Shown in pieces: positions 3,409 through 21,306 of a stretch of 64,000 nucleotides of DNA. The notes beneath the pieces were generated by a model that saw nothing but the letters and a program-made list of their open reading frames with translations, ran no database searches and was not told where the DNA came from. The first letter of the stretch is position 1; every line of letters begins with the position of its first letter. A program made the translations under genes and the position numbers. Source of the DNA: Bryobacteraceae bacterium (GTDB lineage: Bacteria; Acidobacteriota; Terriglobia; Bryobacterales; Bryobacteraceae); contig JABAQT010000002.1 of NCBI GenBank assembly GCA_019187195.1, positions 99,625 through 163,624 on the forward strand, written 5' to 3'.

Positions 3409-4482
3409 TCATTCCCCACGCGCGAGCCGGATGCCGTCCGTCACCAGCTTCCGGCAAAACCCCCAGAATGTGGCCAGCCACGCCGCCAGCGCGATGTAGA
3501 AAAAAATATGCGGCATCTCAATCAGAAAATCGAGGTGCATCGCCTGGGCCATCTGGAACGTGCAGGCGGTGTACATTCCGAGCGGAAAGACCGCGCCCCA
3601 ATACAAGGGATCGTACTCCAGCGGAAAGCGCTTGTAGACATAGCGCCACGCCGCCAGAATCGCCAGCATGGGAATCCACCATGTCCCCGTCGCCCAATAG
3701 AACACCGTAAACCCCTTCAGAAATGGGAGCAGCGAATTCAGAAACGGCGCGTCCGGCGTGTTCACAATCAATCTGGCCCCCGCCAGCGTCGAGATGGCCA
3801 TCGCCCCCATATTGATCCAATACGGTGGAGAGAGGTCGCCGGGCGAAAAACGGAAGAACGTGTAGCGGTAGAAAATCAGCGAGATCATCCAGATGTACAG
3901 CATCCCGCCCCACAGCCACATCGAGAGCGCGAAATAGTTGATCATCAGCCGGTAGGGCTGGTGCCAATGCAGCGCGACGAGAGCGCTCAGGCTCGCCACC
4001 GACTGCGTGGCGACCACGGCCAGCAGCCAGGCGCCAGAAATGCCGTCGGCCAGGGCCGGCTTGTCCTCCTTGATCGTGAGCGCCGTAAGCACCGTGTAAA
4101 TCAGAGCCACCCAAAGGACCACGGCCAGCGCCCACAGCACGACCGCGACATGGTAATCGCCCGTGATCAGCACAAATTGCGCGCCGAGGATGCCTGACGC
4201 CGCCACCACCGTAAAAAACCCGGGCGCGCGCTGATGGTCCGTCAGGTCGCTGAGCACCAGCGCGCCGAACCAGCGAATGCGCAACAGGTATAGCGCCCAG
4301 ATACTCACATAGGCCGCGATGTTCAGGACGAACAGCGCCCACGCCAGCCAGGCAATGTTCATCATGTGCGCGGAAAGCGAAACGATACCCGTCGCCATCA
4401 CCATCGCGAAATAGCTCGGTGAGAGCCCGGCCGCCAATGCGGCCACGGTACCGCGGCGCGAATCCGTTTCGGTATGGGTCAC
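3409..4482 (-). CDS. SLAC1/TehA (TDT) family anion channel or transporter
   Basis: 357 residues with about ten hydrophobic segments. The N-terminal SPSYFAMVMATGIVSLSA is the hallmark of the TDT family (TehA, plant SLAC1, Mae1), which moves anions such as nitrate, chloride, sulfite or dicarboxylates. It follows the DUF7009-like gene by 5 nt and is the last gene of the nar-act unit. SLAC1 homologues can conduct nitrate, so moving nitrate or nitrite across the inner membrane is an attractive role, but this is inference from position. Dicarboxylate or sulfite transport remains possible. No terminator was recognised after it; the neighbouring gene converges from the other side. Confidence 0.85.
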   Translation of the reverse strand: MTHTETDSRRGTVAALAAGLSPSYFAMVMATGIVSLSAHMMNIAWLAWALFVLNIAAYVSIWALYLLRIRWFGALVLSDLTDHQRAPGFFTVVAASGILGAQFVLITGDYHVAVVLWALAVVLWVALIYTVLTALTIKEDKPALADGISGAWLLAVVATQSVASLSALVALHWHQPYRLMINYFALSMWLWGGMLYIWMISLIFYRYTFFRFSPGDLSPPYWINMGAMAISTLAGARLIVNTPDAPFLNSLLPFLKGFTVFYWATGTWWIPMLAILAAWRYVYKRFPLEYDPLYWGAVFPLGMYTACTFQMAQAMHLDFLIEMPHIFFYIALAAWLATFWGFCRKLVTDGIRLARGE

Positions 4483-4487
4483 GAAAA

Positions 4488-4868
4488 TTACCGGCCGGCG
4501 CCGGAGCCGCGCTCTTCGTCGCCCGGATGCGGATAGACATCGGCGTTGAAGCGTTCCTCCGGGCGGGTCAGACAGCGGAAATCTTTCTCGATTGCGATGT
4601 CCAGCGCGCCCGCAAGGACGTAGATGCCGGTTTCATCGGAGGCTGCCCACTGCCGGACGCGGTCCGGCGCCACCGTCACCTCCGCCACCCCGGAGCCGAA
4701 CGACGCCCGGATGTCATCCGTCCCTTCCGCGGGCCGGATCTTGTAGATCAGAACCTGGTCCGGGGCAAATTCGGTGGACTCTTCCACCGCTTCACCGGCG
4801 GAAAGGCGCGCCACTTCCGGCCTTGTCAGCCGGAGCCGCAACGAATTGCCTTTGATGCGTAGTTTCAT
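4488..4868 (-). CDS. DUF7009-like small conserved protein
   Basis: 126 residues starting MKLRIKGNSLRLRLTRPEV, a conserved opening I associate with DUF7009. It is soluble, with alternating beta strands and many acidic residues, no signal peptide and no Cys-based metal site except a single Cys in KDFRCLTRP. The C-terminal tail (YPHPGDEERGSG) looks flexible. It lies 73 nt after actF and 5 nt before the SLAC1/TehA gene. Function is unknown; placement suggests an accessory role for the respiratory complex or the channel, but it could be unrelated. The family assignment is from memory. Confidence 0.65.
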   Translation of the reverse strand: MKLRIKGNSLRLRLTRPEVARLSAGEAVEESTEFAPDQVLIYKIRPAEGTDDIRASFGSGVAEVTVAPDRVRQWAASDETGIYVLAGALDIAIEKDFRCLTRPEERFNADVYPHPGDEERGSGAGR

Positions 4869-4941
4869 TGTCGACTCCCTCGGTTGCCGTCATCCCTCCG
4901 TTGTACGCGCCGCTTGCCGGAAGAAGCCCTACAGCCGGTCC

Positions 4942-6105
4942 TTAGTTGTGGTAGCTCAGGCTCTGAGCAAGCAGCGGATCCTGCACCGGCACCTGCGGCA
5001 CGCGCCGGAACCACGCCAGGAACGTCAATACGAACAGCGCCATCGCTCCCAGCATCATTCCGAATTCCATCCATGGTAGAGTCACCTTGCCGTGAGTGGC
5101 GGGCGGCAACACCATCAGGTAGAGGTCAAGCCACCGGCCCAGCAGCACCAGGATCGCCATCGAAGCCAGCACCGCTGGAGTCCGCTTGGCGGCGCTCGAC
5201 AGGAGAATCAGGAACGGCACTCCCCAGTTCAGCCCGATGTTGATCAGGAACAGCACGCCGAGCACTCCCTGCTGTCTCAGGATGTAATACATGCTCTCTT
5301 CCGTCATGTTCGCGTACCAGATGAGCATGTACTGGCTGAAGAAGATATACATCCAGAACGTGCTGAAAGCAAACAGCAGCTTGCCCAGATCGTGCAGGTG
5401 CTCCTGGTTCACGAAATCGCCAAGAGGCGATCTCGGCTTCAACCACAGGATCAGCAGAATGATCGCCGCCACTCCCGCGACGAACATCCCCGAGTAGTGG
5501 TAAATTCCAAAAATGGTGCTCGTCCACTCCGGCTCGAGTGACATGATCCAGTCCACGCTGGCAAGCCAGTAGGATAACGCAAAAACGTACATATAAATGG
5601 CCGAGGCCAGAATGTTGCGCCGCCGGTAGACCAGTCCGCCCTCCTCGTCCTGGCGGCGGGAGTTGCGGACCAGGTACCACGAGAAACCGAACCACAGAAC
5701 AAAGTAGATAACCACCCGAAGCAGGAAGAAGGGACGGCTCAGCCAGAACGCATGAAACCCGCTCGCTTCGCCATGGTGGGCTATCCAGGGATACAACTCA
5801 GGGTGGAACAGGAAAACGGCCAGCAGTCCCGCCGCGCCCACCGGTGTAGCCGCGATCATCGCCTCGGGAACCCGCCGGAAGGAGACGGCCCACCCTGCCC
5901 CGCATACATACTGCAGCCCCACGAACAGCCCTCCGGCCAGCCCCATCGAGAGCAGCCAGAACGAAACCATCAGCAGGCTGCCCCATGCTCGCTCCGGAGC
6001 CAGGGCCAGGCCGGCGAACCATGAAAGCGCGCCGATTCCAGTCAATGCGAACAGTACCCGCAGCAGCTTCCTCGGGGGTTGATAGCTGAATTCGTAGCCG
6101 CTCAT
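4942..6105 (-). CDS. actF: ActF, Alternative Complex III membrane subunit
   Basis: 387 residues beginning MSGYEFSYQPPRKLL, with about ten transmembrane segments. ActF is the smaller relative of ActC (NrfD/PsrC fold) and helps form the quinol-side membrane domain of Alternative Complex III. The ATG overlaps the actE stop in an ATGA, which fixes the start; the longer open frame upstream is a shadow of actE. Conserved stretches include ASVDWIMSLEPEWTSTIFG and the aromatic QYMLIWYANM segment. It is the last core subunit; no cytochrome oxidase genes follow, unlike many act operons. No ActG was recognised. Confidence 0.92.
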   Translation of the reverse strand: MSGYEFSYQPPRKLLRVLFALTGIGALSWFAGLALAPERAWGSLLMVSFWLLSMGLAGGLFVGLQYVCGAGWAVSFRRVPEAMIAATPVGAAGLLAVFLFHPELYPWIAHHGEASGFHAFWLSRPFFLLRVVIYFVLWFGFSWYLVRNSRRQDEEGGLVYRRRNILASAIYMYVFALSYWLASVDWIMSLEPEWTSTIFGIYHYSGMFVAGVAAIILLILWLKPRSPLGDFVNQEHLHDLGKLLFAFSTFWMYIFFSQYMLIWYANMTEESMYYILRQQGVLGVLFLINIGLNWGVPFLILLSSAAKRTPAVLASMAILVLLGRWLDLYLMVLPPATHGKVTLPWMEFGMMLGAMALFVLTFLAWFRRVPQVPVQDPLLAQSLSYHN

Positions 6106-6764
6106 TTTTTCACCTCCTGCGCCGCCGGCGTCTGCCCCGCCACCGGGGCCGGAGCCGCCTCGGCCGGCGCTCCAGAAGGCGGCACGGGTGCCGGCGCTGC
6201 CGCCGTAGTCTCTTTCTGCGCCGCCTTCACGTATGCGATTACGCTCCAGCGGTCCTCCGGCGTCAACTGCGTGGCATAGCCCGGCATCTTCTTCTGGCCG
6301 AATGTCACAATGTGAAACATCTGGCCCTCGGTCAGCTTCACGCTGTTCTCGCCCTTCAGGTTCGGCGGAGCCGGGAAGCCGTGCATCGCTACCGCCCCAT
6401 CGCCACGCATCGATCCGCCATGACACGGCGTGCAGAAATTCTGATAGACCACCGTACCCCTGGCCTTCGCTTTCTCCGGATCGAGAGGATTCTTCAACTC
6501 GGCCCCCGCCCGCAACGCATCTTCCGGAGTCGCCTGATAATGAAGCGGCGTGAACCCGCGCGGAAGTGTACCCGGAACCGGGGGTTGCATGGTCTTCCCT
6601 TCCGGCAGAATCGGATTCGGTGAGAACGAGGCATAAGCCGCCGAGTGCGCCATATCCGGAAGATAGTCGATATTCGGCACGTCAGGATCGGGCCGCACCA
6701 CAAAGTTGGCGGCCATCGTCAGCGCGAACAGCGCCGCCAGCGTCCAGTTGATCTTCGCGCTCAA
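6102..6764 (-). CDS. actE: ActE, monohaem cytochrome c subunit of Alternative Complex III
   Basis: 220 residues. An N-terminal hydrophobic anchor (about 6-22) is followed by the segment RPDPDVPNIDYLPDMAHSAAY typical of ActE, and a class I cytochrome c domain with one haem site C111-TPC-H115 and a likely axial Met160 (QKKMPGYATQL). The tail is Ala/Pro-rich. In the complex it passes electrons from the ActA/ActB redox chain to an outside acceptor. There is no lipobox, so it is anchored by the uncleaved helix or released. It overlaps actD and actF by 4 nt each. Confidence 0.93.
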   Translation of the reverse strand: MSAKINWTLAALFALTMAANFVVRPDPDVPNIDYLPDMAHSAAYASFSPNPILPEGKTMQPPVPGTLPRGFTPLHYQATPEDALRAGAELKNPLDPEKAKARGTVVYQNFCTPCHGGSMRGDGAVAMHGFPAPPNLKGENSVKLTEGQMFHIVTFGQKKMPGYATQLTPEDRWSVIAYVKAAQKETTAAAPAPVPPSGAPAEAAPAPVAGQTPAAQEVKK

Positions 6765-7294
6765 GCGGGCACCTCCTCGGTCAGCATTTCCGTCACCTCC
6801 ACCGCCCCGTGAGACTCGAGCAACCGCCGTACACGCGCCACGTCGAACGCCGCGTCCGTCTCCTCGATGATGAGGGCAAAGCGGTCATCAGTGACCCGGG
6901 GATGAACCAGCTTGGCTCTCCTACCCGGCCACAAACGCGACACCATCAGGAGCGCGGCGACCGTAAACAGGCCGGCAAACAGCACCATCACTTCGAAAGT
7001 AATCGGGACAAAGGCCGGCAGCGAGTTCCACGGCTTGCCGCCCACGTCCACCGGCCAGTCGATGGCGGCCGTCCAGATTTCAAACCACATCTTGAGCACC
7101 GCTCCCGTGGCCCCAGCAAGCAGACACACCAGCGCCAGGCGCGACCGCTTCAGGCCCAGCACGCGCTCGAGGCCATGCACCGCATAGGGCGAGTATACTT
7201 CCACGATCCGCAACCGCTGTTCGCGGGCATCCTTGATGGCGCCGATCAGCGCCGTCTCATCATCGAAAATGCCCATCAACTGAAATTGAGTCAT
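6761..7294 (-). CDS. actD: ActD, DUF3341 subunit of Alternative Complex III
   Basis: 177 residues with two transmembrane helices (about 55-75 and 103-122) separated by a periplasmic loop. Family signatures are SPYAVHGLE near residue 35, WPVDVGGKPWNSLPAFVP near residue 80 and the C-terminal regulatory-like beta-alpha-beta segment. ActD contacts ActC and ActF in the membrane domain and carries no cofactor. Its ATG overlaps the actC stop by 1 nt and its stop overlaps actE by 4 nt, indicating tight translational coupling. Confidence 0.94.
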   Translation of the reverse strand: MTQFQLMGIFDDETALIGAIKDAREQRLRIVEVYSPYAVHGLERVLGLKRSRLALVCLLAGATGAVLKMWFEIWTAAIDWPVDVGGKPWNSLPAFVPITFEVMVLFAGLFTVAALLMVSRLWPGRRAKLVHPRVTDDRFALIIEETDAAFDVARVRRLLESHGAVEVTEMLTEEVPA

Positions 7295-8652
7295 CAGTGC
7301 GCCTCCCCGTGACCGTGCTTCAGCACCCCTTTGATCTCAGCCATCGCAATTACGGGCAACACCCGGCAGAAGATGAGAAACAGCGTGAAGAAGAGTCCGA
7401 AGCTGCCGATCAGAATCGCGATCTCGATCGACGTGGGCCGGTAACTGGCCCAACTGGCCGGCAGATAGTCGCGATGCAGCGACGTCACGATAATGACGAA
7501 GCGTTCGAACCACATGCCGATGTTGACAAAGATCGTGATGATGAAGACCATCGTCCAACTGTGCCGGATCTTCCGGAACCACAAGACCTGCGGCGTAATT
7601 ACATTGCAGGTGATCATCGTCCAGTAAGCCCAGGCGAACGGCCCCCCCGCGCGGTTGAGAAAAACAAACTGCTCGTAGCGGTTGTTGCTGTATTGGGCCG
7701 TGAAAAACTCCGTGATATAGGCCAGCCCGACTATGCTGCCCGTGGCGATGATCAGCTTCGACATCACGTCGAGATGGCGCAGGTTGATGTACGCTTCAAG
7801 ACCCATCGTCTTGCGCGCGATGATCATCAGCGTCAACACCATCGCCATTCCTGAAAAGATGGCCCCGGCGACGAAGTAGGGAGGAAAGATGGTCGCGTGC
7901 CACCCGGGAATCACCGCCGTGGCGAAGTCCCAACTGACAATGGTGTGCACGGAAACCACCAGCGGCGTGGCGAGACCCGCCAGCAGCAGGTATACCATCT
8001 CGTAACGGTTCCACGTCTTGTAAGCGCCATTCCAGCCAAGACTCAGGATGGAGAATATCTGCTTCCGCAGGCCCGGTTGCGCCCGGTCGCGAATCGTCGC
8101 CAGGTCCGGAATCAGACCCACATACCAGAAAGTGGCCGAAATGATGAAATAGGTCGAAATCGCGAACGCGTCCCAGGCGAGCGGCGAGCGGAAGTTGATC
8201 CACAACGACCCGCGGAAGTTGGGATACGGGAATATCCAATAAGCAAACCATGGACGCCCCATGTGGATCACCGGAAATAGCCCCGCGCACATCACGGCGA
8301 ACAGCGTCATCGCCTCCGCCGCCCGGTTGACGCCCGTCCGCCACCGTTGCCGGAACAGAAACAGAATCGCCGAGATCAGCGTCCCCGCGTGGCCGATACC
8401 GATCCAGAACACGAAATTCGTGATGTCGAACGCCCAGCCGACCGTGGTGTTCAGTCCCCAGGTGCCGACTCCCGTGGCGATTTCGTAGCCGATAGCCGCC
8501 ATGCCGAGCGACAGCATGGAGAACGCCACCAGGAACGCCGCCCACCATGCCGCTCCGGGCCGCCGCTCCATCGGCCGGCACACGTCGCCGGTGACATCCG
8601 ACAGACTCTTATGCCCCGTCACAAGGGGCGGACTCAACGCAATATCAGCCAT
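7294..8652 (-). CDS. actC: ActC, NrfD/PsrC-like quinol-oxidising membrane subunit
   Basis: 452 residues with about ten transmembrane helices of the NrfD/PsrC superfamily. Conserved features include [19 protein letters not shown] near residue 90 and [15 protein letters not shown] near 125, regions that line the quinol site in known complexes, and the [20 protein letters not shown] segment near 240. It oxidises menaquinol and hands electrons to the iron-sulfur subunit ActB. Its start overlaps actB by 8 nt. Length and motif set match ActC of complete complexes. Confidence 0.95.
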
Positions 8653-11599
8653 TCTCTTTCTCCCCGTCCACGGTTCCCTCGGGCCGGATGATCTTGAGAT
8701 ATCCCACCGCGGGACGCACGTTGATCTCTTCGAGCACCCGGAAGCGCCGCCCGTTTTCCATCAGGCGCGATACCTCGCTCTCCCGGTCTCTCAAGTCCCC
8801 GAAAGTGATTGCTTTCGCCGGGCACGTCTGCTGGCAGGCCGTCAGTATATCGCCGTCCCTCACCGGCCGGCCTTCCGTCTTGGCGATCATCTTCCCGTCC
8901 TGAATCCGCTGCACACAAAATGTGCACTTCTCCATCACCCCGCGGCTGCGGACCGTGACGTCGGGATTCAATGCCAGGTTCGCCATGCGGTCCTCGCGGG
9001 AGTATGCAAACCAGTTGAAACGCCGGACTTTGTATGGACAGTTGTTGGCGCAGTAGCGCGTGCCCACGCAGCGGTTGTAAGTTTGCTGGTTCAGTCCCTC
9101 GTCACTGTGCGAAGTGGCCAGCACCGGACAAACCGTTTCGCACGGCGCGTGATCGCACTGCTGGCAGAACATCGGCTGGTGCGCCACCCGGGGGTTCTCC
9201 GGAGAGCCCGAATAGTAGCGGTCGATGCGCATCCAGTGCATCTCCCGCTTCCGCCGCATCTCGTCCTTCCCCACAACCGGAATATTGTTCTCCGCCTGGC
9301 AGGCGACCACGCACGCCGAGCACCCGGTGCAGGCATTGAGATCGATCACCATCGCCCACCGGTGAACGGGGTACGTATGATCGGGCGGCCACAACTCCGG
9401 CCGCGGCGCCTCTTTCAATGGGCCCGGGTGCTCCCGCACCTGGACCAGCGTCGTTTCCTGCACGATAGGCCGTGGGCCGCTGCCCGCCGGCTTGAGCCGC
9501 TCGGGTACGGAGAGCGAATGATGCTCCTGCGTGCAAGCAAGGTCCGTGTGCTTCCCGGTCCTGGTGACCTTCGCTCCCCCGCGGGAATAGCGGAGCGCTC
9601 CCCTTTCGAGCGTCAGCAGTGGAGCCGCGTTGAGCCCCACCAACCCCTTCTCGTTCAAGGTCGGCCGCGCTTCAATCCACTCGGGTCCGGCCTTTGCAAA
9701 CCGCGCCGACAGCCGGCTGCCGAAGCCCAGCGCCACCGCCACGGTTTCTTCATGCTGGCCTGGCTGCACGAGAGCGGGAAGCTCAAACGTCTGCCCGCCG
9801 CACTCGACGCGCACCACGTCGCCCATTGCCACGCCCATCTTCGCCGCCGCTCCGGGAGCCAAACACGCATAGTTGTCCCATGCCACCTTGGTCACCGGAT
9901 CCGGCACTTCCTGAAGCCACGGGTTGTAAGCATGGCGGCCTTCAAACAGAGCCGGTTTGGCGTAGAGCACCAAGTCAAAGCCTTCCTGCCGCGTGGTCTC
10001 GCCTCCCTGGGAAGCCGCCGCCTCGCGTACACCGGCGGTCTTGGCGCGCGCCGCCGGTTCGTACTGCGCGAAACCATCCTGCAGGGTCTTCTCCCAGAAC
10101 CGGTCAAATGCGAGCCCGGATTTCGTTCTCGGGAAGATCTCCTTCTGCCAGTGGTCGCGCACCATGTCCAGCACGGGGCTCGGCTTTCCGGACCACGCGG
10201 CCAGCGTCTCCACCCAGGCTCTTGTCCGGAACAGCGGCCGCAGACAGGGCTGCACCAGGCTTGCCGTTCCATCCACCGGTTCGGCGTCGCCCCATGATTC
10301 GAGTGTGTGCGACGCCGCGGAAACCACATGCGCCTTGGCCGCCGTCTCGTCCAACCGCTCGGCGTGAACCACCAGCAGTTTCGCCTTCCCCACCGCGTCC
10401 CCGCCCGGCAGTTCGAATACCGGGTTCGCGCCCGCGACAATCAACACATCCACGCGGCCGTCGCGCAGTTCGGCCATCAGGTTCTCGAGCGCGCGGTCAT
10501 CGCCGCGCCGCTGCCGGCTGGAGCGGTCCGTCTCGAGTACGGTCCCGTAGTTGCCGAGTTCTTCATTGATCCGGTTCACCAACGCCTGCGTGGCCACGTC
10601 CTGGCTTCCCGAGATGACCAGCCCGCTCCCGCGGGCTTCCCGCAGCCGCTTGGCGCATTCCGCCACTTCCGCGCGGCTCGAACTGCCGGTTCGAACCGCC
10701 TCGGCCAGATCGCTCACAAACCGTCCCATCTCGCCGGGGCTGAGCAACACCCGCCGGTCCGCCTTCGTCCCCGTGAGCGACATCCGCGACTCCACCTGGG
10801 CGTGCCAGGCGTAGCGCGTCCCGCCCGGGTCGCGCGAATCCGAGTAGCCGCGCGCGAACTCGACCGGCGAGATCCACGTTCCGAGAAAATCGGCGTCGAT
10901 CGACACGATCACGTCCGCTTTGTCGAACCGGTAGCGCGGCAGGATTCGCGCGCCGTGCGTCCGCTCATGCGCGTCGAGAATCGCCGACGCGGACAGGGCG
11001 TCGTATTCCACGTGCCGGGCGTTGCGAAAGCCTTCGAGAAAACGGCGGATCCATGCCGATTCCGTCGGGCCATGCAGGGTTCCGGTGAGCAGACGCACTG
11101 CGCTTCCGTTCTTCCTGGCCTCGTCAAGACGGGCCAGTACGAATTTATCAGCCTGTTCCCACTCCGCGGGCTTGCCATCGAGCAGCGGCTGCGCCACACG
11201 CTGGCGGTCGTAAAGCCCGAGAATCGAAGCTTGACCCACGGCGCACAAACCGCCCCGCGAAACCGGATGGTCGGGATTCCCTTCCAGTTTGATCGGCCGC
11301 CCGTCCCGGACCTTCACCAGCGTGCCGCAGGCCGCGGCGCAGGCGAGGCATGTCGAGGCGTAGTAAACCGATCGCCCGGGTATGAACCCCTCCGGTTGAA
11401 TCAGGTTCGGCTCGATCTTCGGAACCGTGCGGCTGCATCCGGCCAGCGCCGCCGACCCGAAACTGAAGCCTACGGCCTTCAAAAAACCGCGGCGGTCCGG
11501 ACCGGCTTCGATTCCGATAGGAGTCTCGTGGAACTCAGCGCCGTCCGGTTCGGAGGCAGCCTGCCACTCATCCAAGCTGCGCCAAAGTCTATCAGGCAT
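8645..11599 (-). CDS. actB: ActB, iron-sulfur subunit of Alternative Complex III
   Basis: 984 residues. A Tat signal ([14 protein letters not shown] at 36-37) ends in a lipobox-like LAGC with Cys55, so it is probably a periplasmic lipoprotein. The N-terminal domain resembles molybdopterin oxidoreductases and has Cys84, Cys87 and Cys91 plus a later Cys in GGLCAVG for one cluster, but in this family it lacks the pterin cofactor. The C-terminal third (from about 755) is a ferredoxin-type module: [38 protein letters not shown] and [18 protein letters not shown], enough for four clusters. It links ActC to the haem subunits. It starts 12 nt after actA. Confidence 0.95.
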
Positions 11600-11611
11600 G
11601 ATCTAATCCTT

Positions 11612-12265
11612 TTAAAAGTGACAGGTCGAGCAGTCCGTCGAGGCGTGCACGCTTATGCCCGCCACGCCTTCCTTGGTCGCCTGGCGATGGCAGTTCACGC
11701 ACCAACCCATGCTCAGATCCGAATACTGGCGAACCCGCTTCATCGTCTCCACCGGCCCGTGGCATTGCTGGCAGGCGACGTTCACCCGCACATGCGCGCG
11801 ATGGTCGAAATAGACAAACGAAGGCAGCGAGTGCACCCGGTTCCAGGCGATCGGTTGTTCCTTCTTGCCCGGATCGGGTTGCAAATTCGCGTCGAGCGCC
11901 AGCGCGTCATACAACTTCTGCAACTCCGGAGAGACGATCCGCCTCGGCTTTCGATTTTCCTTGGTGGCGAGTTCGTCTTCGGCATGCATCGCGCCAAGCG
12001 ACGCTGTCACCTCCCGGTGGCAGTTCATGCACAGGCTCGCCGGAGGAACCCCGGCATGCCGGCTGGTCTGAGCCGGGTAGTGGCAATAAAGGCAGGGGAT
12101 CTGCATCTCCCCCGCGTGCAACAGGTGAGAATAGGCGATCGGCTGCGCCGGCGCATACCCCTGCTGGTTGCCAGGCAGGTGCAGTTTTCCAATCCGCGTG
12201 GCGAGCAGAATGCAGGAAACGCCGAGTCCGATGGCCAGAACGATAGTAGCAATGCGGGTGTTCAT
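11612..12265 (-). CDS. actA: ActA, pentahaem cytochrome c of Alternative Complex III
   Basis: 217 residues with one N-terminal membrane anchor (about 5-22) and five CXXCH haem sites: C58-H62, C79-H83, C165-H169, C189-H193 and C212-H216. Length, haem spacing and position as first act gene match ActA, which receives electrons from ActB. The ATG begins 1 nt after the narK stop, the tightest evidence that the nar and act blocks are one transcript. The last haem site sits two residues from the C-terminus. Confidence 0.96.
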   Translation of the reverse strand: MNTRIATIVLAIGLGVSCILLATRIGKLHLPGNQQGYAPAQPIAYSHLLHAGEMQIPCLYCHYPAQTSRHAGVPPASLCMNCHREVTASLGAMHAEDELATKENRKPRRIVSPELQKLYDALALDANLQPDPGKKEQPIAWNRVHSLPSFVYFDHRAHVRVNVACQQCHGPVETMKRVRQYSDLSMGWCVNCHRQATKEGVAGISVHASTDCSTCHF

Positions 12266-12266
12266 A

Positions 12267-13601
12267 TCAGTGGGTCACCAGCGTCTTGGGAGGTTCGGCG
12301 GGCGCGGCCGCGGCCGGCGCCGCCTCACCGGAATATTTAAGAATCCAAGTCATGGTCAGCGATAGTAATGTAAGAAATACGAATACGATAAATCCGATGG
12401 CGTACCCCGCCTTCCCCAGGTCCCGCACGGCGAAGGCCAGGATGGGAGGCAATACGAATCCGCCAAATGCCCCCAATCCGCCGACCCACCCCGACGCGCC
12501 CCCCACCGCTTTCGGAACCGCCTGCGGCACCATCTTGAACACCGCCGCGTTGGTCACCCCCATGCCGAACGCCATCAGAACCTCCCCCGGAAGCGCCATC
12601 TCATATCGAGTCGCGCTGATCATCACCAGCGTCCCGGAAAGCAGAATCAGAAGCGCCAGCACGGCGGTGTTCTCGCCGCCCTCGCGCAGTTTATCGGCCA
12701 GTATGCCGCCACCCACGCGGATCAGCGATGTGAGCAAGGAGAACAGGCCGGCCAAGCCGCCCGCCAGCAGCGGGGAAAGACCGAAATATTGCGTGTAGTA
12801 AGTGGGCAGCCATGCGGTGAGCGCAATGAATCCGCCGAATGTTGTGAAATAGATGCACACCAGCGCCCATGTCTTCGAGCATCGCGCCGACTCGCGTAGG
12901 CTCTCCGCAAGATTGCGCGCCGGAAACAACTCCTGGCCGAGCGCGGCCGACTCGCGGCGCGCCTCCGCCTCGGGAACGCCCCGCTGCCGCAACTGGAAAT
13001 ACCACGAGTTCCGGCCAAGCAAGGCATACAGCACGGTCCCCGCCACCAGCATCAGAAACCACGCCACATAGGAGACGCCCAGGCCCCATTTCATCAGCAC
13101 GAAGGGCAGCACGAACGTGAATATACCGGGCGCGATGTTCCCCAACCCACCGTAAATCGCCAGCGCGCGCCCCTGCTGCCTCTGCCTGTGCCAGTAGGAA
13201 ACCTGGCTGATGCCCACTGAAAACGTGGCGATGCCGCACCCGCAGAACAACCCCAGCAGCAGCAGCGCCGGATACCACGCCGCCGTCAGATGATCCGGAT
13301 AGACCCATAGCGCCACCGCCGTCAGGCCGGACATGCCGATCAACGACAGGCACATCAGCACCAGGAACGGCTTCCGCCCCCCCGTGGTCTCCACCCACGC
13401 CGCGAACGGGATGCGCAACAGCGACCCCGAAAGCGCGGGCATCGCGATCAGGAAGCCCACCGCCATGGGGCTCAGCTCCATCACCTGTTGGAATCGCGTC
13501 GCCGTCGGTCCGAACAGCGCCACCGCCGCGAAACCAAAGAAGAAGCCTAAAGTCGCCGCCCACAGGCCTTGTGACGGTGTGCCGCGTAAGGTCCGTGTCA
13601 T
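12267..13601 (-). CDS. narK: NarK-type nitrate/nitrite transporter (MFS)
   Basis: 444 residues, twelve transmembrane segments, major facilitator fold. NarK-family traits are the SQVSYWHRQRQQGRALAI loop followed by GGLGNIAPG (nitrate signature 1) and GGASGWVGGLGAFGGFVLPP (signature 2). It imports nitrate and/or exports nitrite across the inner membrane, as expected for a cytoplasmic-side NarG. It follows narI by 10 nt and precedes actA by 1 nt. The single-copy arrangement does not show whether it is a NarK1 (proton symport) or NarK2 (antiport) type. Confidence 0.92.
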   Translation of the reverse strand: MTRTLRGTPSQGLWAATLGFFFGFAAVALFGPTATRFQQVMELSPMAVGFLIAMPALSGSLLRIPFAAWVETTGGRKPFLVLMCLSLIGMSGLTAVALWVYPDHLTAAWYPALLLLGLFCGCGIATFSVGISQVSYWHRQRQQGRALAIYGGLGNIAPGIFTFVLPFVLMKWGLGVSYVAWFLMLVAGTVLYALLGRNSWYFQLRQRGVPEAEARRESAALGQELFPARNLAESLRESARCSKTWALVCIYFTTFGGFIALTAWLPTYYTQYFGLSPLLAGGLAGLFSLLTSLIRVGGGILADKLREGGENTAVLALLILLSGTLVMISATRYEMALPGEVLMAFGMGVTNAAVFKMVPQAVPKAVGGASGWVGGLGAFGGFVLPPILAFAVRDLGKAGYAIGFIVFVFLTLLSLTMTWILKYSGEAAPAAAAPAEPPKTLVTH

Positions 13602-13611
13602 CGCCGCGCTC

Positions 13612-14313
13612 CTAACTCTTCGCCGCCGCGGGCCGCCGGTACCAGCGAACCACCTGAGGCCGGCGCCACAGGTAGGGATTCGGCGCTACCAGAATGTGGA
13701 CGAGCCGCGTGAAGGGGAAGAACCCAATGAGCAGAAAAGCGTTGACGATATGAAACTGAATCAGCCCCGGCATCACCGAAACCACGGCCATGTTCGGGTT
13801 CAGCTTCGCAACCGACCACAGGTAGGGCGTCACCGCGATGGCGAACCATGAAGACCCCCACGGATACATCATCGCTATCCCTATCCCGGAGAGCACTTGC
13901 AGGAGCAGGAGCCCGAGGACGACCCAGTCGGCGGGCGATGTTACGATCGCGATCTTATGGTTCGTGCGGCGCCGCGCCATCGCGGCCACCAACCCGGCCA
14001 GCGTCAGCAGCCCCGCCGCCAGCATGCCGATTTCCATCACCCACAGCCGCAGCGGAATCCTCGCCCACCACTCCACCTCGCGAGGAATCAGAAAAGCGGC
14101 AATGTGCATCCCGAGAACCGTCAGAATTCCATAATGGAAAGGCATCAGCGCCCAGAAATGCTGCCGGTTTTCGAGAAATTGGCTCGAAAGACTCGAATAC
14201 GTGAATGCGCCCGTCCGGTACCGCACAATCGTCATCAGGAAGAACGTGACCAGCGACACATACGGCAGAGCAATAAAAAAGACTCCGTAGAAATAGGCTG
14301 TTAGATTATTCAT
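13612..14313 (-). CDS. narI: NarI, respiratory nitrate reductase gamma subunit (cytochrome b)
   Basis: 233 residues with five predicted transmembrane helices, the usual NarI size. The sequence starts NNLTAYFYGVFFIALPYVS, typical of the family, and has His residues in helix positions expected for two b haems (AFWALMPFHYGIL, MHIAAFL, FHIVNAFLL). It anchors NarGH and oxidises quinol on the outer face of the membrane. Its ATG overlaps the narJ stop by 4 nt. With a membrane-bound cytochrome c encoded upstream, it may also exchange electrons with that protein, as proposed for Thermus. Confidence 0.93.
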   Translation of the reverse strand: MNNLTAYFYGVFFIALPYVSLVTFFLMTIVRYRTGAFTYSSLSSQFLENRQHFWALMPFHYGILTVLGMHIAAFLIPREVEWWARIPLRLWVMEIGMLAAGLLTLAGLVAAMARRRTNHKIAIVTSPADWVVLGLLLLQVLSGIGIAMMYPWGSSWFAIAVTPYLWSVAKLNPNMAVVSVMPGLIQFHIVNAFLLIGFFPFTRLVHILVAPNPYLWRRPQVVRWYRRPAAAKS

Positions 14314-14819
14314 GACTTTTCTCCCGCCGGAACGGTTTCCGGCACGAGTTCCGCAATCTCCTTGTTGAGGGCAACCACCAGCGGTAGAAACGGACTCTCC
14401 GTCTTGGCCAGGCCCTCCCGCAATTTCCCGATCGCGGGCAGCGCGTGCTTGCGGACAAGGTCCGTCCGTTCCTCTTCCGGCATACGGTCAATCAGTTGCA
14501 ACACATGGGAAAAGTGGTCAGGCAGTTCTTGCGATTCCGGCACCTCGTGGGCTCTCAGCGCGCTCCGCAACTGCACCAGAAAGTCCCCGCGATCGTAGTT
14601 CTCGCCGAAAAGATGCCAGCCGATGTCGAGTGTCGTCTCGGGATTCCAATCAAAGGTCTGCGTGAAAAGCTCCTGCAGCGCTTCCACCGGCAGTCCGTCG
14701 ATGGTTCGCAGGAACTCCTCCATCTCCGCCGATGGAGCGGCGGCGAGGCACGCGCGGGCCGACGCGTGGTAGTCCTTCGATGGATACGCCAGCAGGGCAG
14801 CCCACCGCGACAGGTTCAT
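14310..14819 (-). CDS. narJ: NarJ, nitrate reductase assembly chaperone
   Basis: 169 residues, all-helical, of the NarJ/TorD family that helps insert the molybdenum cofactor into NarG and attach NarGH to NarI. The start is set by the ATGA overlap with narH at 14816-14819; a longer open frame upstream is a narH shadow. Visible family traits are LLAYPSKDY near the start, PDHFSHVLQLIDRMPEEER, and EESPFLP-type text near 145 (KTESPFLPLV). It is not part of the final enzyme. Confidence 0.93.
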   Translation of the reverse strand: MNLSRWAALLAYPSKDYHASARACLAAAPSAEMEEFLRTIDGLPVEALQELFTQTFDWNPETTLDIGWHLFGENYDRGDFLVQLRSALRAHEVPESQELPDHFSHVLQLIDRMPEEERTDLVRKHALPAIGKLREGLAKTESPFLPLVVALNKEIAELVPETVPAGEKS

Positions 14820-16306: not shown

Positions 16307-16321
16307 AGCTCTTCCTTTCCT

Positions 16322-19300
16322 CTACCAGCGCAGATCCGACAGCTTGCGTACCATCACGTGGGTATCGCGGTTTACGCCCGTCGGACCCCAATAATTCAAA
16401 TGGAAGGTGAACTGCCCGTAGCCTCCCATCATCAGATTCGGCTTCAACCGCACGCGCGTCAGGCTGTTGTGCCCGCCGGCCCGGCGGTATCCGCGTAGCG
16501 GCGACTTCGGAACCGAATACGTCCGCTCGGGCGAGTGATACTGGATACAGATGCCTCGCGGGATGCGCGCGCTGACAGCCGCGCGCGTCACCACCACGCC
16601 GTTATCGTTGTGTACCTCCACCCAGTCGTTGTCCACGATTCCGATCGAAGCCGCGTCGTGGTCGTTCATCCAGAACGGCTCCACCCCTCGCGAGAGTGTG
16701 GTCATGCGCTGGTTGTCGCCATAGGTCGAGTGGATGTGCCACTTGCCGTGCGGCGTCAGGTAGTTCAACATCAGCGATTCGTTCTTCTCCGTGGTGAACC
16801 GCAGGTCGGCGTAATCCTGCGGCAGCGGCTTCGGCTTGTAGCACGGCAAGTGCTCCCCGAAGTCGATATAACCCGGATGGTCCAGGTAAAAGTGCTGGCG
16901 CCCCGTCAGCGTCCGCCACGGAACCATGCACTCCACGTTGTAGCTGAACGGCGAGTACGCCCGCCCGTTCTCGGTCAGTCCCGACCACATCGGGCTGTTC
17001 AACAGCCGGAACGGCCGCGTCTGGAGCGTCTTGTAGTCGGCGCGCAGCGCGCGCGCTTTCTCCACCAGGTGCGCCAGTGGAACCCCCGTCTTCTGTTCCA
17101 TGTTCTGGTAGGAGCGGTAGGATAGCTCGCCGTTGGTCACCGAGGCAAACCGCAACACGGTGTTCGCCGCCTGTTCGTCCTCGTAGATCGAGACATACCT
17201 GCCGTTGTCGAACTCCACCGTGGGCACTTCCTTCAGCGCCTGTTCGTAGAAGTCCTTGATCGCATAGTGTGTCCCGTGCGCGCCCAGCCCGTTATCGCGC
17301 GCCAGTGGCCCGAAGGAGATGTACTGGTTATAGATGTTCTTGTAGTCGCGCCGGACGATCTTCAAGCCCGGCATCGTCTTGCCCGGGATCGCCTCGACCT
17401 CTCCCTTGGTCCACTCGGCGATCTTCGTCTGCGCGATCTCCGCCGAGGAGTCATGCGCCAGCGGACTTGCCACCAAATCCTCCACCAGGCCCGGAAAATG
17501 CTTCGGAGCCAGTTCGGAGAACTTACGCGAGATCGCCCGGAAAATCTGCCAGTCGGTCTTCGATTCCCAGCACGGCGGCACCGCCGCCGACAGCGGATGG
17601 ATGAAGCTGTGCATGTCCGTCGAGTTCAGGTCGGCCTTCTCATACCAGGTCGCCGCCGGCAGCACGATATCCGAATACAGCGCCGAAGTGTCCATGCGGA
17701 AGTTGAGATCGACAACCAGATCCATCTTCCCTATCGGCGCGGTCTTATGCCATTCCACTTCCTTCACCGAATCCTCGGCCAGTTCCTTGGCAATCAGGTT
17801 GTTGTGTGTCCCCAGGTAGTGCTTCAGGAAATACTCGTGGCCTTTCGAGGAAGCCATCAGCGCGTTGCCGCGCCAGATGTACCACATGCGGGGCCAGTTT
17901 TCCTCGGCATCCGGGTTCTCGACCGAGAAACGCAACCGCCGCTGCTTCAACGCGTCCACTGTCCAGGAGACGATCTCTTCATCGGTCTTCGCGCCCTGCG
18001 CGCGCGCCTCGTCCGCCAGTTCCACCGGGTTGCGGTTGAACTGTGGATAAAACGGCAGCCAGCCGTTCCGCACCGCCTTCACCTGCAAATCCGCCGTATG
18101 GCCGGTGGCCACCGAATCCGGCCGTTGATGCTGCGGCACCGTGTGGTAGTCCGTGAACTGCCGCTCATAGCGCCACTGGTCGGTGTTCATGTAGTGCCAG
18201 CTCGGCGCATTCTGCAACCGCGCCGCCGGATACCAGTCCCGCCCGAACGCGATCGAAGCCCACGATTCGCCCGGAGCCAGTTTTTCCTGCCCCACGTAGT
18301 GCGCCAGGCCGCCGCCGTTCACACCCACGCAGCCGCAGAACATCAGCGCGTAAATCGGAGCGCGGTACATCAGGTTGTTGTGATACCAGTGGTTGATGCC
18401 CGCTCCGATGATCACCGTGCACTTGCCCTTCGTAAAGTGCGCCGTATTGCCCCACTCGCGCGCGAAGCGGATCAGCGTCTCTCGTCCCATGCCCGTGTAA
18501 CGCTCGCTCCAGGCGGGCGTGTAGGGCTTGTCTTCCTCGTCGTAGGACGCCGGGTAAGCGCCCTCGAGACCGCGAGGCACGCCGAATTGCCCCATCAGCA
18601 GGTCATAGACCGTGGTCACCGTAACCGTCTCGCCATTGACCGTCGTCAGCCGCTTCACCGGCACATGGCGCTCGATCGATTTCGCCGCCCCGAAATCGTC
18701 GAAAACCACCGGGGCCGATTCGCCGCCAAGCAGCGTCAGCGCCGGCTGTATGTCCGTCCCGTCAAGGCCGTCCCGCAACAACAGGTTCCACTGTCCCTTA
18801 TCGCGCTGCCACCGGAACCCGCTCGAACCCATCGGCATTTTCACCCGCTGTTCGGCTTCGTCCCACATCAGGAACTTCCAGTCGCCGTTCTCTACGTCCG
18901 TATAGCCGGCCATACGGTTGGCGCGCAGCATCTGGCCCGCGCGCCAGACGTTGCCGTCCTGCTTCAACTCGACCAGGTATGGCGCGTCCGTATACTTCTT
19001 CGTGTAGTCGATGAAGTACGGCTCTGGCTTATCGTGATGGAACTCCTTCAACAAAACATGATTCACCGCCATCCACCACGCCGCGTCCTGGCCGGCGTTC
19101 ACCGGAATCCATTCATCGGCGTACTTGGCCACCTGGCTGAAGTCCGGCGCAAACACCCACATCTTCGTCCCGTTGTGCCGGGATTCGGCCGCGAAGTGGC
19201 AATCGGGCGTCCGCGTCATGTTCAGGTTCGATCCCATGACCGCCAGCAGTTTCGCGTTGTACCAGTCGGCCGACTCGTGGGCGTCGGTCTGCTCGCCCCA

Positions 19301-19960
19301 CACCTCCGGCGATGCCGGCGGCAGGTCGCTGTACCAGTCGTAGAACGACAGCAGCACGCCGCCGATCAGTTGCAGATAACGCGAGCCGGAAGCGAAGCTG
19401 ATCATCGACATCGCCGGAATCGGCGAGAAACCCGCGATGCGGTCCGGACCGTACTTCTTCGCCGTGTACACGTTCGACGCCGCGATGATCTCGAGCGCGG
19501 TGTCCCAATCGAAGCGGCGGAATCCGCCCTTGCCGCGCGCCTTCTGCCAGCGCTGGCGCTTCTCGGGATCCTCCACCAGGCTCCGCCATGCCTCCACCGG
19601 ATCTTCATGCGCCGCCCGCGCGCTCTTCCACAGATCGAGCAGCGCTCCGCGCACGTAGGGATACTTCACCCGCAGCGGGCTGTACAGATACCATGAGTAT
19701 GAAATGCCGCGCTGGCACCCGCGAGGCTCGTAGGGCGGCAACCCTGACTCGAGCATCGGGTAGTCGGTCGCCTGCATCTCCCAGGTGACGATCCCGTCCT
19801 TGACATAGATGTTCCAGGAACATCCGCCCGTGCAGTTCACTCCGTGCGTGCTGCGGATGACCTTGTCATGCTGCCAGCGGTTGCGGTAAAACTCTTCCCA
19901 CCCGCGCTGCGCGGGGTTGCTCTCGTCTTTAATCCAGATCAACGAGCCGTTGTTTTTCAC
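16322..19960 (-). CDS. narG: NarG, molybdenum catalytic subunit of respiratory nitrate reductase
   Basis: 1212 residues, close to the standard NarG length. The FS0 cluster ligands are His39, Cys43, Cys47 ([12 protein letters not shown]) and Cys82 (PRGCQRG). The molybdenum ligand corresponds to Asp253 in MTRTPDCHF, diagnostic of NarG against other DMSO-reductase members. The start lacks a twin-arginine motif, so the active site should face the cytoplasm, consistent with narK in the unit. It reduces nitrate to nitrite. Its ATG overlaps the upstream cytochrome gene by 4 nt. No nitrite reductase is encoded in the window. Confidence 0.97.
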
Positions 19961-20829
19961 GATCGGCCTCCCAATACTTTACGCGCGCTCATTTGCACCA
20001 GCGGGTCGCGAACCGCTCGGAACCGGGCCTTCCATATCACCGCGAACAGCGCCAGCAACAATATCGCCACCAGGAAACCCATGGCGAAAAAGCCGGCCAG
20101 TCCGGTGCGGTTGTCCTCCGCGCCGGATCGCGCGGTGTCTTCAAACAGCGCCAGCAGCGGCAGAATCTCTTCCGCCTTCAGCGCCTTCTTCGAGAAGGTC
20201 AGACTCATCGTCGGCGTGGCCGGAGCGTACAGCCACGCGCCCATCGCTTTCCTTCCCTGCAGGCGTTCGTATGCCCTCGATAGATCGGGCCCAAGATGAC
20301 CGCCGCCGAAGCCTCCCGCCCCGTTGAACGTGTGGCAGGTGACGCAGGGCGGACCCCCGTTGGCCAGCCTCTTATCACCCATGAACAGCGCCTTGCCTAA
20401 CTCGATGTCGTGCTGGGTGAACGGACGGTCGCTGATTTGCAACCCCGCGAATTGCGACTTCGGCAGCTTCGATTCCGCCTCGATCATCGTCAGCAGCAGT
20501 TCCGCCAGCGCCGGCGTCATGCCGTTGATGTTCGGCATCACCACATCGCGCGCCTCTTCCTTCAGCTTCAAGGCGTACGGATCGCCCTTGTCTATCATTG
20601 CCTGCGGAGACTGAAGAAACTGCACCAGCCACGCGCGGTCTTTCTTCTGCGTAACGTCCTTGAGGTCCGGTCCCGTCAGCCGGCCGCCTCCAATGGTGTG
20701 ACAACTCGTACAGTTCCCGCGGAAGAAGTCCACAGCCTCCTGCGCGTGCGCGACGATCGGGCCGGCAATAAAAATAAGTGGAATATAAAATGCCGGCCCG
20801 ATCCGATGAAGTAGCAGTTTAAAGGTCAT
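19957..20829 (-). CDS. narC: Membrane-anchored dihaem cytochrome c, NarC-like
   Basis: 290 residues. A Sec signal ([15 protein letters not shown], ends near 30) leads into a periplasmic region with two haem c sites, C40-TSC-H44 and C162-VTC-H166, and one C-terminal transmembrane helix (about 245-266) with a short basic cytoplasmic tail. It precedes and overlaps narG by 4 nt, the same position as narC in the Thermus narCGHJIK operon, where the dihaem NarC supports NarGHI assembly and electron exchange. Assignment as NarC is by gene order and haem count rather than sequence identity. It could be the link between Alternative Complex III and NarGHI. Confidence 0.75.
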
Positions 20830-20840
20830 GAGAATCAGCC

Positions 20841-21257
20841 TCAGTTCTTCCGTTCCTGATGGGGCGCTATATCAGCCAGTGTCGTGTTCTCGAGAAAACT
20901 GATCATCGCGTCGCCCACCGCCTGCCAGGCGCGGTGCGCCGCGCAGGCATCCGAGTCAGAGCATTGTTTCTGCGAATCGAGCAGACACCCGCGCGAAATA
21001 CGGTGGCGCTCGAACAGCGCGACAATGTCGGCCAGATGGATCTCCTCCGGCCGCTTTTGCAGCCTGTATCCGCCACCGCTTCCACGGGTGGCATCGATGA
21101 ATCCGGCGCCGCCCAACGTCCACAGAATCTTCGAGAGATAGTTCGCCGGTATGCCCGCCTGCTTGGCCAAATCACGGCCCAGAATGAAGGTTCCGTCGGG
21201 AAGTCCGGCCAGCACGGAAAGCGCTCTAAGTGCATGCTGGACCGTGGCGGAAAGCAT
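20841..21257 (-). CDS. Rrf2-family iron-sulfur transcription regulator
   Basis: 138 residues. The N-terminal winged helix (SATVQHALRALSVLA) and the wing motif RGSGGGYRL are typical of Rrf2 proteins such as NsrR and IscR. Three Cys, C91, C99 and C105 (C-x7-C-x5-C), form the expected cluster-binding loop, so it probably senses NO, oxygen or iron-sulfur status. It is the first gene of the nar-act unit, 11 nt before the cytochrome gene, so it likely controls itself and all downstream genes. NsrR-like is the best guess because nitrate respiration yields NO, but the spacing does not separate NsrR from other subgroups. Confidence 0.9.
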   Translation of the reverse strand: MLSATVQHALRALSVLAGLPDGTFILGRDLAKQAGIPANYLSKILWTLGGAGFIDATRGSGGGYRLQKRPEEIHLADIVALFERHRISRGCLLDSQKQCSDSDACAAHRAWQAVGDAMISFLENTTLADIAPHQERKN

Positions 21258-21266
21258 TTGTTGATC

Positions 21267-21278
21267 TCTTCATGAAGA
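21267..21278 (-). promoter_or_regulatory. 12-bp palindrome at the nar-act transcription start
   Basis: TCTTCATGAAGA is a perfect palindrome immediately downstream of the -10 hexamer, covering the expected start site (about 21272). A second palindrome, AGTATACT (21279-21286), covers the -10. Position suits an Rrf2 operator; the identity of the binding protein is inferred. Confidence 0.45.
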
Positions 21279-21306
21279 AGTATACTATATCCAAGAAAAC
21301 TGTCAA
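21279..21306 (-). promoter_or_regulatory. Strong sigma70-type promoter of the Rrf2-nar-act unit
   Basis: On the minus strand there is a perfect TTGACA (21306-21301), a 16-bp spacer and TATACT (21284-21279). The -35 overlaps the stop codon of the upstream DUF438 gene. The leader to the ATG at 21257 would be about 15 nt. It is the best consensus promoter in the window. Confidence 0.75.

Follow-up and report, generated by a model that had tools for sequence, protein, structure and literature searches.

An Alternative Complex III encoded with the nitrate reductase of a Bryobacteraceae bacterium and its relatives

Gene content and predicted control of the run

A stretch of 64,000 nucleotides (the window) was analyzed from the 5.83-Mb draft genome of a Bryobacteraceae bacterium (GenBank assembly GCA_019187195.1, contig JABAQT010000002.1, positions 99,625 to 163,624). 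On its minus strand, from 21257 down to 3409, it carries 15 genes in one packed run: rrf2, encoding a regulator; narC, encoding a dihaem cytochrome c; narGHJI and narK, encoding a nitrate reductase (Nar) and a transporter; actABCDEF, encoding Alternative Complex III (ACIII); and two accessory genes, encoding a DUF7009 protein and a SLAC1-type channel. The genes are as follows:

20841..21257, minus strand: rrf2, Rrf2-family regulator of 138 aa with three Cys (91, 99, 105); PF02082 (4.5e-30), TIGR00738 above cut-off
19957..20829, minus strand: narC, dihaem cytochrome c of 290 aa with CxxCH at 40 and 162 and a hydrophobic stretch near each end; PF00034, motifs and hydropathy
16322..19960, minus strand: narG, catalytic subunit of 1212 aa; matches Escherichia coli NarG (1q16_A) over residues 18-1212 with 1238 bits
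14816..16306, minus strand: narH, Fe-S subunit of 496 aa; PF13247, PF14711
14310..14819, minus strand: narJ, assembly chaperone of 169 aa; PF02613, TIGR00684 just under cut-off
13612..14313, minus strand: narI, dihaem cytochrome b of 233 aa; PF02665, TIGR00351 above cut-off
12267..13601, minus strand: narK, nitrate/nitrite transporter of the major facilitator superfamily (MFS), 444 aa; PF07690, TIGR00886 below cut-off
11612..12265, minus strand: actA, pentahaem cytochrome c of 217 aa with 5 CxxCH; matches 6btm_A residues 241-404 (3e-47)
8645..11599, minus strand: actB, 984 aa, with an RRGFLK signal region, an N-terminal [4Fe-4S] motif and a C-terminal Fe-S domain; 6f0k_B (3.1e-186), PF04879 (8.8e-10)
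7294..8652, minus strand: actC, NrfD-type membrane subunit of 452 aa; 6btm_C (6.9e-191), PF03916
6761..7294, minus strand: actD, 177 aa; PF11821 ActD (9.4e-58)
6102..6764, minus strand: actE, monohaem cytochrome c of 220 aa with one CxxCH; PF13442
4942..6105, minus strand: actF, second NrfD-like membrane subunit of 387 aa; 32% identity (blastp) to the ActF candidates of two further ACIII loci of the same genome (C2 and C8)
4488..4868, minus strand: accessory DUF7009 gene, after a 73-nt gap; PF22668
3409..4482, minus strand: accessory gene for a SLAC1/TehA-type channel; PF03595

The junctions were recomputed as 11 nt (rrf2-narC), −4 (narC-narG), 15 (narG-narH), −4 (narH-narJ), −4 (narJ-narI), 10 (narI-narK), 1 (narK-actA), 12 (actA-actB), −8 (actB-actC), −1 (actC-actD), −4 (actD-actE), −4 (actE-actF, with the actF ATG at 6105), 73 (actF-DUF7009) and 5 nt (DUF7009-SLAC1). 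The genes, their common direction and these junctions are all as the original prediction had placed them. There is likewise no oxidase gene among the genes of the run, and actA does begin 1 nt after narK. The description as one packed unit holds, but the count of 14 genes does not, as the genes listed number 15. Also, the DUF7009 and SLAC1 genes had been counted in the unit; they are present in the run, but the conserved block, (Rrf2-)narC-narGHJI-(narK-)actABCDEF, lacks them. We rejected both as core members because few relatives keep them 3′ of actF: a DUF7009 gene stands beside the nar locus also in L078, L080, and L090, and SLAC1 is kept 3′ of actF in L076, L077, and L078.

All six ACIII subunits, ActA to ActF, are encoded in order, with a pentahaem ActA (five CxxCH) and a monohaem ActE (one CxxCH); ActF gave no Pfam match. 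ActC keeps the quinol-site motifs, since IHMGRPW, WDAFAIS, and a third motif align with 6btm_C, and we read these as probable counterparts of Rhodothermus marinus His139, Asp169, and Asp253. On the nitrate reductase side, NarG, NarH, and NarI are encoded together with the chaperone NarJ, and a dihaem, membrane-anchored NarC precedes narG, as in the Thermus-type NarCGHI. In an alignment on E. coli NarI, the NarI of the window retains all four His at the positions which we take to be the haem ligands, and has Arg at the Lys86 position. No twin-arginine motif was seen at the N-terminus of NarG, whereas an RRGFLK signal region opens ActB; the expected sites are accordingly the cytoplasm for nitrate reduction and the periplasm for ActB. 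Placement by such signals is established behaviour of both protein families.

A gene set of this kind, which matched no complex known to its authors, was proposed to encode an NrfAH-like nitrite reductase (PMC10732223). That the six act genes here should be such a reductase instead of ACIII is hardly credible, given the presence of all six subunits, the long matches of A, B, and C to solved chains, and the membership of ActD in its own family; moreover, a separate NrfA is encoded in 20 of 36 genomes that carry both nar and act (nar-act genomes).

Two candidate control elements lie ahead of rrf2:

21279..21306, minus strand: predicted sigma-70-type promoter, TTGACA-16-TATACT, with 11/12 consensus matches, on the operon strand just before rrf2
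21264..21281, minus strand: predicted Rrf2 operator, the 18-bp near-palindrome ACTTCTTCATGAAGAGAT, overlapping the −10 box, with 2 mismatches to the family consensus

Sigma-70-like sites are rarer between 3000 and 22900 (19.9 kb) than in shuffled sequence (2 found vs 4.2 ± 2.3); the site alone thus proves little, and its position matters more than its presence. A TTGAC-type −35 box was judged by eye to be present in the leaders of 10 of 13 relatives. The putative operator has one match in the window, against 0.01 expected. Eleven of 12 family loci (window included) have an operator-like site, with 2-5 mismatches to the consensus, at 5-14 nt before rrf2; as the consensus was derived by eye from these very leaders, this conservation is a description and not an independent test. 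The site is weak in L205 and L209, absent in L088, and was not found in six more distant loci (L100, L105, L107, L217, L221, and L223).

The 1-nt junction between narK and actA has neither a promoter-like nor a terminator-like site. The nearest terminator-like match on the operon strand lies inside actA (12115-12092), and such matches occur over the region at chance level (18 vs 15.0 ± 4.1 in shuffles). A separate promoter and terminator between narK and actA, named beforehand as an argument against a single unit, are thus not predicted at that junction. A single promoter ahead of rrf2 would place the whole run under the control of Rrf2. Directly upstream of rrf2, across a 45-nt gap, lies a gene encoding PAS and hemerythrin domains (21303-22286, minus strand), a possible sensor of oxygen or nitric oxide (NO). 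It was rejected as a core member, since a homologue is unreported in the annotated family loci and the predicted promoter sits between it and rrf2.

Linkage across phyla and a cysteine motif in ActB

Within the family, NarG of at least 75% identity was found in 15 of 81 genomes, and the same 15 encode an ActB of at least 51% identity over the N-terminal half; none has only one of the two. Among the matches listed, all other family ActBs covering the N-terminal half reach at most 49%. Here and below, 'NarG', 'ActB', 'nar-linked', and 'cox1-linked' are defined by identity or score cut-offs and not by curated orthology, and many of the compared genomes are drafts or metagenome-assembled genomes (MAGs). 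In 12 relatives, nar and act lie on one contig in the same order, although the contig of G002 holds only the end of narG and that of G043 stops inside actB. Contig ends interrupt the block in G038 and G074, with narK and actA still together in G038.

Over the phylum, 27 of 297 sampled genomes encode NarG (E <= 1e-150), and narG and actB share a contig in 22 of them (this genome included). In a 23rd linked genome, G342, narH-narI and act lie on one contig, and in G359 nar and act are split over contigs. No linkage was seen in G149 (a 6.3-kb contig), G255, and G346, the last being of the Rieske type described below. When 14 nar-linked ActBs were compared with 84,980 species genomes, nar was found beside act among the best 80 loci in Bacteroidota (L097 and L102), Planctomycetota (L104 and L126), Acidobacteriota (L100, L105, and L109), a record labeled only as bacterium (L099), and a MAG of Acidimicrobiia (Actinomycetota; L107), which may be misbinned, as its NarG sits among Blastocatellia. 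The other top loci are contig fragments or have no nar gene in the DNA examined. The neighborhood comparison suggested with the original prediction thus finds the block in the family, in the phylum, and in other phyla; the arrangement is not a chance one.

The ActB proteins of these loci share a feature of their own. Domain B1 of the window ActB contains C84-x2-C87-x3-C91-x27-C119, which is matched by PF04879. The four Cys are invariant in 14 family members and missing from the aligned ActB chains of three solved ACIIIs (6f0k_B, 6btm_B, and 8k9e_B). In the solved R. marinus complex, B1 is described as lacking a prosthetic group and the Fe-S wire as ending near the surface, with unclear function (PMC5928083). 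The window ActB departs from this feature, which describes the solved complex and does not define membership. A cluster bound by the four Cys would extend the wire.

In a census of 136 non-duplicate loci (window included; L109 and L225, which are one contig, counted once), all four Cys are present in 42 of 43 nar-linked ActBs, the exception being L210 with Ser in first place. Locus L219 was counted as nar-linked on a NarI-like gene alone; without it, the proportion is 41 of 42. None of the 48 cox1-linked ActBs has the motif. Where neither nar nor cox1 is a neighbor in the DNA examined (n = 45), 18 ActBs carry it, 25 do not, and two are without their N-terminus. PF04879 was detected in all of six further motif-bearing ActBs scanned and in neither of two oxidase-linked ones. 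Hence, the nar-linked ActB is a distinct type, and the motif offers a ready marker separating two types of ACIII in metagenomes. The genome encodes two further ACIIIs (C2 and C8), each followed by cytochrome oxidase genes and with an ActB 36-38% identical to that of the window, whose ACIII is apparently a dedicated paralogue. An AlphaFold2 model of ActB (14 sequences) was set aside owing to a mean predicted local distance difference test score of 57.9, with residues 1-134 below 50.

The 18 motif-bearing loci without a nar gene, at the cut-offs used and in the DNA examined, raise the question of whether this type of ACIII has another partner, with nar joined to it only because both respond to one trigger (low oxygen, nitrate) and are transferred together. 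A NarI-like protein, with or without a NarC-like one, is encoded before actA in L106, L243, and L219 with no narGH in the DNA examined: the NarC-NarI-like pair is fused in L106 and present also in L243 (genome G077), and L219 has the NarI-like gene. In L106 and L243, ACIII and cytochrome b possibly form a module for another acceptor. These three loci still pair ACIII with NarC- or NarI-type cytochromes, however, and the 18 include several contig fragments; for L082 and L085, the nar half of the block apparently lies on another contig. We consider another partner improbable as a general explanation. Motif-bearing ActBs with neither nar nor cox1 in the DNA examined include L118, L138, L123, L132, L153, and L154, from Nitrospira, Myxococcota, Bacteroidota, and Spirochaetota records.

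In a tree of full-length ActB, 28 rows form one group with a support of 91 in the Shimodaira-Hasegawa-like approximate likelihood ratio test (SH-aLRT). These rows comprise 23 nar-linked ActBs, four motif-bearing ones without nar in the DNA examined, and one with its N-terminus cut. In trees of the C-terminal domain of ActB, for which separate Fe-S subunits served as the outgroup, motif-bearing rows stand at the base and motif-less ones arise within them. Approximately unbiased (AU) tests rejected a single clade for the motif-less (p 0.00085) and for the motif-bearing rows (p 3.5e-6), but not for the nar-linked rows (p 0.296). The rooted trees consist of rows of our own choice (81 and 54 ActBs) over about 240 columns, with a long outgroup branch and weak root placement. 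Repeated loss of the motif is the simpler account, because four Cys are more easily lost than gained again at the same positions. Tentatively, these trees suggest that ACIII may have arisen in anaerobic nitrate respiration, with the nar-linked, five-cluster form as the ancestral one, and that the N-terminal cluster may have been lost repeatedly upon recruitment to oxygen reductases, leaving the 'dead-end' wire of the ACIII structures solved so far.

Electron supply to the nitrate reductase

The run encodes a NarGHI with its own ACIII, and electrons would probably flow from menaquinol through ACIII, NarC, NarI, and NarGH to nitrate. Menaquinol oxidation by ACIII with cytochrome c passing electrons toward nitrate was already the suggestion of the original prediction, and this route fits the comparative data best, because of the conserved linkage, the nar-specific ActB type, the replacement of ACIII by a Rieske complex in a sister clade, and the NarC-like domains fused to ActA. 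On this route, ACIII would oxidise menaquinol at ActC on the periplasmic side, and electrons would pass over the cofactors of ActB and ActA (and ActE) to NarC. NarC would hand them to the NarI haems, from where they would cross the membrane to NarH and reach the molybdenum site of NarG for the reduction of nitrate in the cytoplasm. Energy would be conserved twice, at ACIII and by inward transfer through NarI, a plain NarGHI having only the second step.

Several fusions bear on the position of NarC. Residues 32-104 of NarC match residues 56-127 of Flavobacterium johnsoniae ActA (6btm_A, E 3.4e-10), and the N-terminal domain of this ActA has been described as a membrane-anchored, mobile domain with a sixth haem, proposed as the carrier from ACIII to cytochrome aa3 (PMC8552683). 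A NarC-like domain is fused ahead of ActA in 42 open frames, mostly from Bacteroidota. We infer that NarC is a shuttle between ACIII and NarI. In a single case (L221:1097-3535, minus strand, genome G089), one open frame of 812 aa joins ActF to a NarK-like MFS transporter. This frame, the NarC-like-ActA fusions, and the NarI-Rieske fusions described next are indirect pointers to a possible supercomplex of ACIII and Nar.

The genome has a second nar cluster (C28) with the order narC-narG-narH-narJ-narI-cytochrome b and a NarG 59% identical to that of the window. There (L093:682-3340, minus strand), a single protein combines NarI and a Rieske domain, and the next gene encodes a cytochrome b that ends in a cytochrome c domain. 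The Rieske-NarI fusion occurs in four of five annotated clusters (C28, G012, G298, and G346), G080 having a separate, adjacent Rieske gene; a cytochrome b gene comes next in all five, and a narC-like gene or fragment precedes narG in four (none is annotated in G012). NarI and Rieske domains were both found in 120 of the 120 homologues listed (of 2501 metagenomic homologues; query included). A quick NarG tree of 50 rows separates an ACIII clade (38 linked and three unlinked or split) from a Rieske clade (five Rieske-linked and four labeled unlinked) with an SH-aLRT of 100; L102 was dropped as too short, and L284, labeled unlinked, shows the start of a Rieske part at the edge of its stretch. In the sister clade, the part of ACIII would be played by the Rieske/cytochrome b complex, whose Rieske domain is in most cases joined to NarI. 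For the main NarG type, ACIII thus appears to fill the place of a quinol:cytochrome c oxidoreductase, a slot that seems to have been filled in two unrelated ways. The nosZ gene of the same genome (C57, L279:4693-9752, plus strand) likewise lies behind genes for a Rieske protein, a cytochrome b, and a multihaem cytochrome c. Taken together, C28, nosZ, and the window show a recurrent pattern, in which a nitrogen-oxide reductase has its own quinol:cytochrome c oxidoreductase encoded beside it. Elsewhere in the genome (C3, L013:8484-10868, plus strand), a NorB with a cytochrome c-like N-terminal domain is encoded, apparently an NO reductase of the quinol type.

A number of observations weigh against the route through ACIII. 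In 40 of 40 act-linked NarI rows (window included; L109 and L225 among them being one contig), none of the four haem His is missing and the Lys86 position holds a basic residue; the same is true of three of three unlinked or Rieske-linked rows, so direct oxidation of quinol by NarI is still conceivable. We had considered that NarI loses its quinol site when linked to ACIII, and rejected this, as act-linked and other NarI are alike. NarC does not require a linkage to ACIII or Rieske genes: in a third nar cluster of the genome (C4, L092:3860-11074, minus strand, narC-narGHJI, NarG 70% identical), no ACIII or Rieske gene was recognised alongside, and G255 likewise has narC with neither recognised in adjoining DNA. 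The fold of the first NarC haem domain is a common type, since its best solved match is an SCO1-fused cytochrome c (2l4d, 1.6e-12), ahead of ActA. Cytochrome b C-terminal domains were found in 28 of 37 genomes, so ACIII is not the sole possible quinol:cytochrome c complex in these cells. The 18 motif-bearing ActB loci (some on short contigs) stand beside no recognised nar gene. Finally, ACIII could serve other users of cytochrome c, NosZ being present in six of 36 nar-act genomes.

The retained NarI site and these other users come together in the main alternative, in which the two gene sets share a regulon and nothing more: NarGHI would oxidise menaquinol itself, and ACIII would feed periplasmic acceptors of cytochrome c electrons (nitrite, NO, or N2O reductases, or a low-oxygen oxidase). 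NosZ is enriched: six of the 36 nar-act genomes have it, the present one among them, but none of the 26 family genomes that lack the block (Fisher p 0.035), and the figures within the family are 3 of 15 vs 0 of 26 (p 0.043). The two sets differ in kinship, with 21 of the 36 nar-act genomes from other families (several of one genus) and all 26 others from the family. For some denitrifiers, ACIII is said to stand in for bc1 in the reduction of N2O (PMC9270275). However, the nosZ of this genome has Rieske, cytochrome b, and cytochrome c genes of its own, and 30 of the 36 nar-act genomes gave no NosZ match, in a search in which no control gave one either. NirK exceeded the cut-off in one of 36 and NirS was found in none of 37, again with no control genome giving a match. 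A service of ACIII to NirK, NirS, or NosZ in these genomes was set aside, as most have no match. The NarI-Rieske fusion of the sister clade, moreover, points to Nar itself as the acceptor. We regard a shared regulon as the weaker alternative to an ACIII-fed Nar, and as rather unlikely.

The direction of Nar-type enzymes is not readable from sequence alone, and a similar narC-type cluster serves to oxidise nitrite in Nitrobacter (PMC7694296). NarG could then oxidise nitrite, electrons leaving through NarI and NarC, with ACIII running backwards to reduce quinone. Against such a nitrite oxidoreductase (Nxr), the ammonifying NrfA, which consumes nitrite, was found in 20 of 36 nar-act genomes (one fragment) vs 5 of 26 without the block (Fisher p 0.005), and within the family in 9 of 15 vs 5 of 26 (p 0.015), in the same two unequally related sets. 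RuBisCO was found in only 5 of 37 genomes (one fragment) and not in this one. Also, NarG matches E. coli NarG far better than the anammox NxrA (7b04), a comparison that is silent on the Nitrobacter-type Nxr. Nitrite oxidation seems very improbable to us. We continue to favor the flow of electrons from ACIII through NarC to nitrate.

Relation to known systems

ACIII has been treated as an aerobic component, ActB being called exclusively aerobic in a 2023 survey (PMC10100899), and NarGHI as a self-sufficient menaquinol oxidase. ACIII-like clusters away from oxidase genes were noted before, for example in MBNT15 (PMC9386147). In the portion of the open-licence PubMed Central (PMC) literature consulted, no description was found of an ACIII dedicated to NarGHI or of the B1 Cys motif. 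The earlier statement that no act-nar operon has been characterised stands for this literature, but the arrangement itself has been sighted, with ACIII unrecognised (PMC10732223). If ACIII does drive Nar, Acidobacteriota would gain more energy from nitrate respiration than textbooks state (4 H+ in place of 2 have been argued where a bc complex feeds Nar; PMC7931247), and the purpose of NarC would be explained. The nar-linked ACIII is also a natural system for the question of the orphan [4Fe-4S] branch, which the added cluster motif would extend.

The sighting just mentioned concerns Planctomycetota and KSB1 MAGs, in which nar lies upstream of genes for a pentahaem cytochrome c, an Fe-S/molybdopterin-like protein, NrfD, ActD, a CcoP-like protein, and a quinone-binding subunit (13 instances; PMC10732223, 2023). 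Oxygen reductase genes followed in five of the 13. As possible functions, the authors put forward an NrfAH-like nitrite reductase or a component of the respiratory chain; section 10 of that paper reports no ActB type, phylum-wide linkage, or Rieske counterpart.

In Thermus thermophilus, the NarCGHJIK cluster has the same narC-narGHJI-narK order, and Nar there includes an additional subunit, a dihaem cytochrome c of the membrane (PMC7694296). As described there, NarC is a fourth subunit of Nar and binds NarI in two-hybrid tests; its role in electron transfer is not well defined, and a transfer of electrons from NarI to NarC has been suggested as well. In T. thermophilus NAR1, the partner of Nar is the NADH dehydrogenase Nrc, and a regulator of nitrate respiration represses the complex III promoter, whereas the run described here encodes a quinol:cytochrome c oxidoreductase.

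The Nar1 of Streptomyces coelicolor requires, and co-purifies with, the menaquinol:cytochrome c supercomplex bcc-aa3 (Falke et al. 2021, PMC7931247). Its likeness to the present case lies in a cytoplasmic-facing Nar thought to receive menaquinol electrons by way of a menaquinol:cytochrome c complex. Its partner, however, is the aerobic bcc-aa3, encoded far from nar1, while here ACIII is encoded with nar.

Within Acidobacteriota, the Rieske-type clusters (C28, G298, G346, G012, and G080) also place a quinol oxidoreductase after nar, but it is of the bc type, with the Rieske domain fused to NarI in four of five. With the solved ACIIIs, the window complex shares six subunits (ActA-F), a pentahaem ActA, a fused ActB, and an NrfD-type ActC with quinol-site motifs; it differs from them in a run without an oxidase and in an ActB with an additional N-terminal [4Fe-4S] motif.

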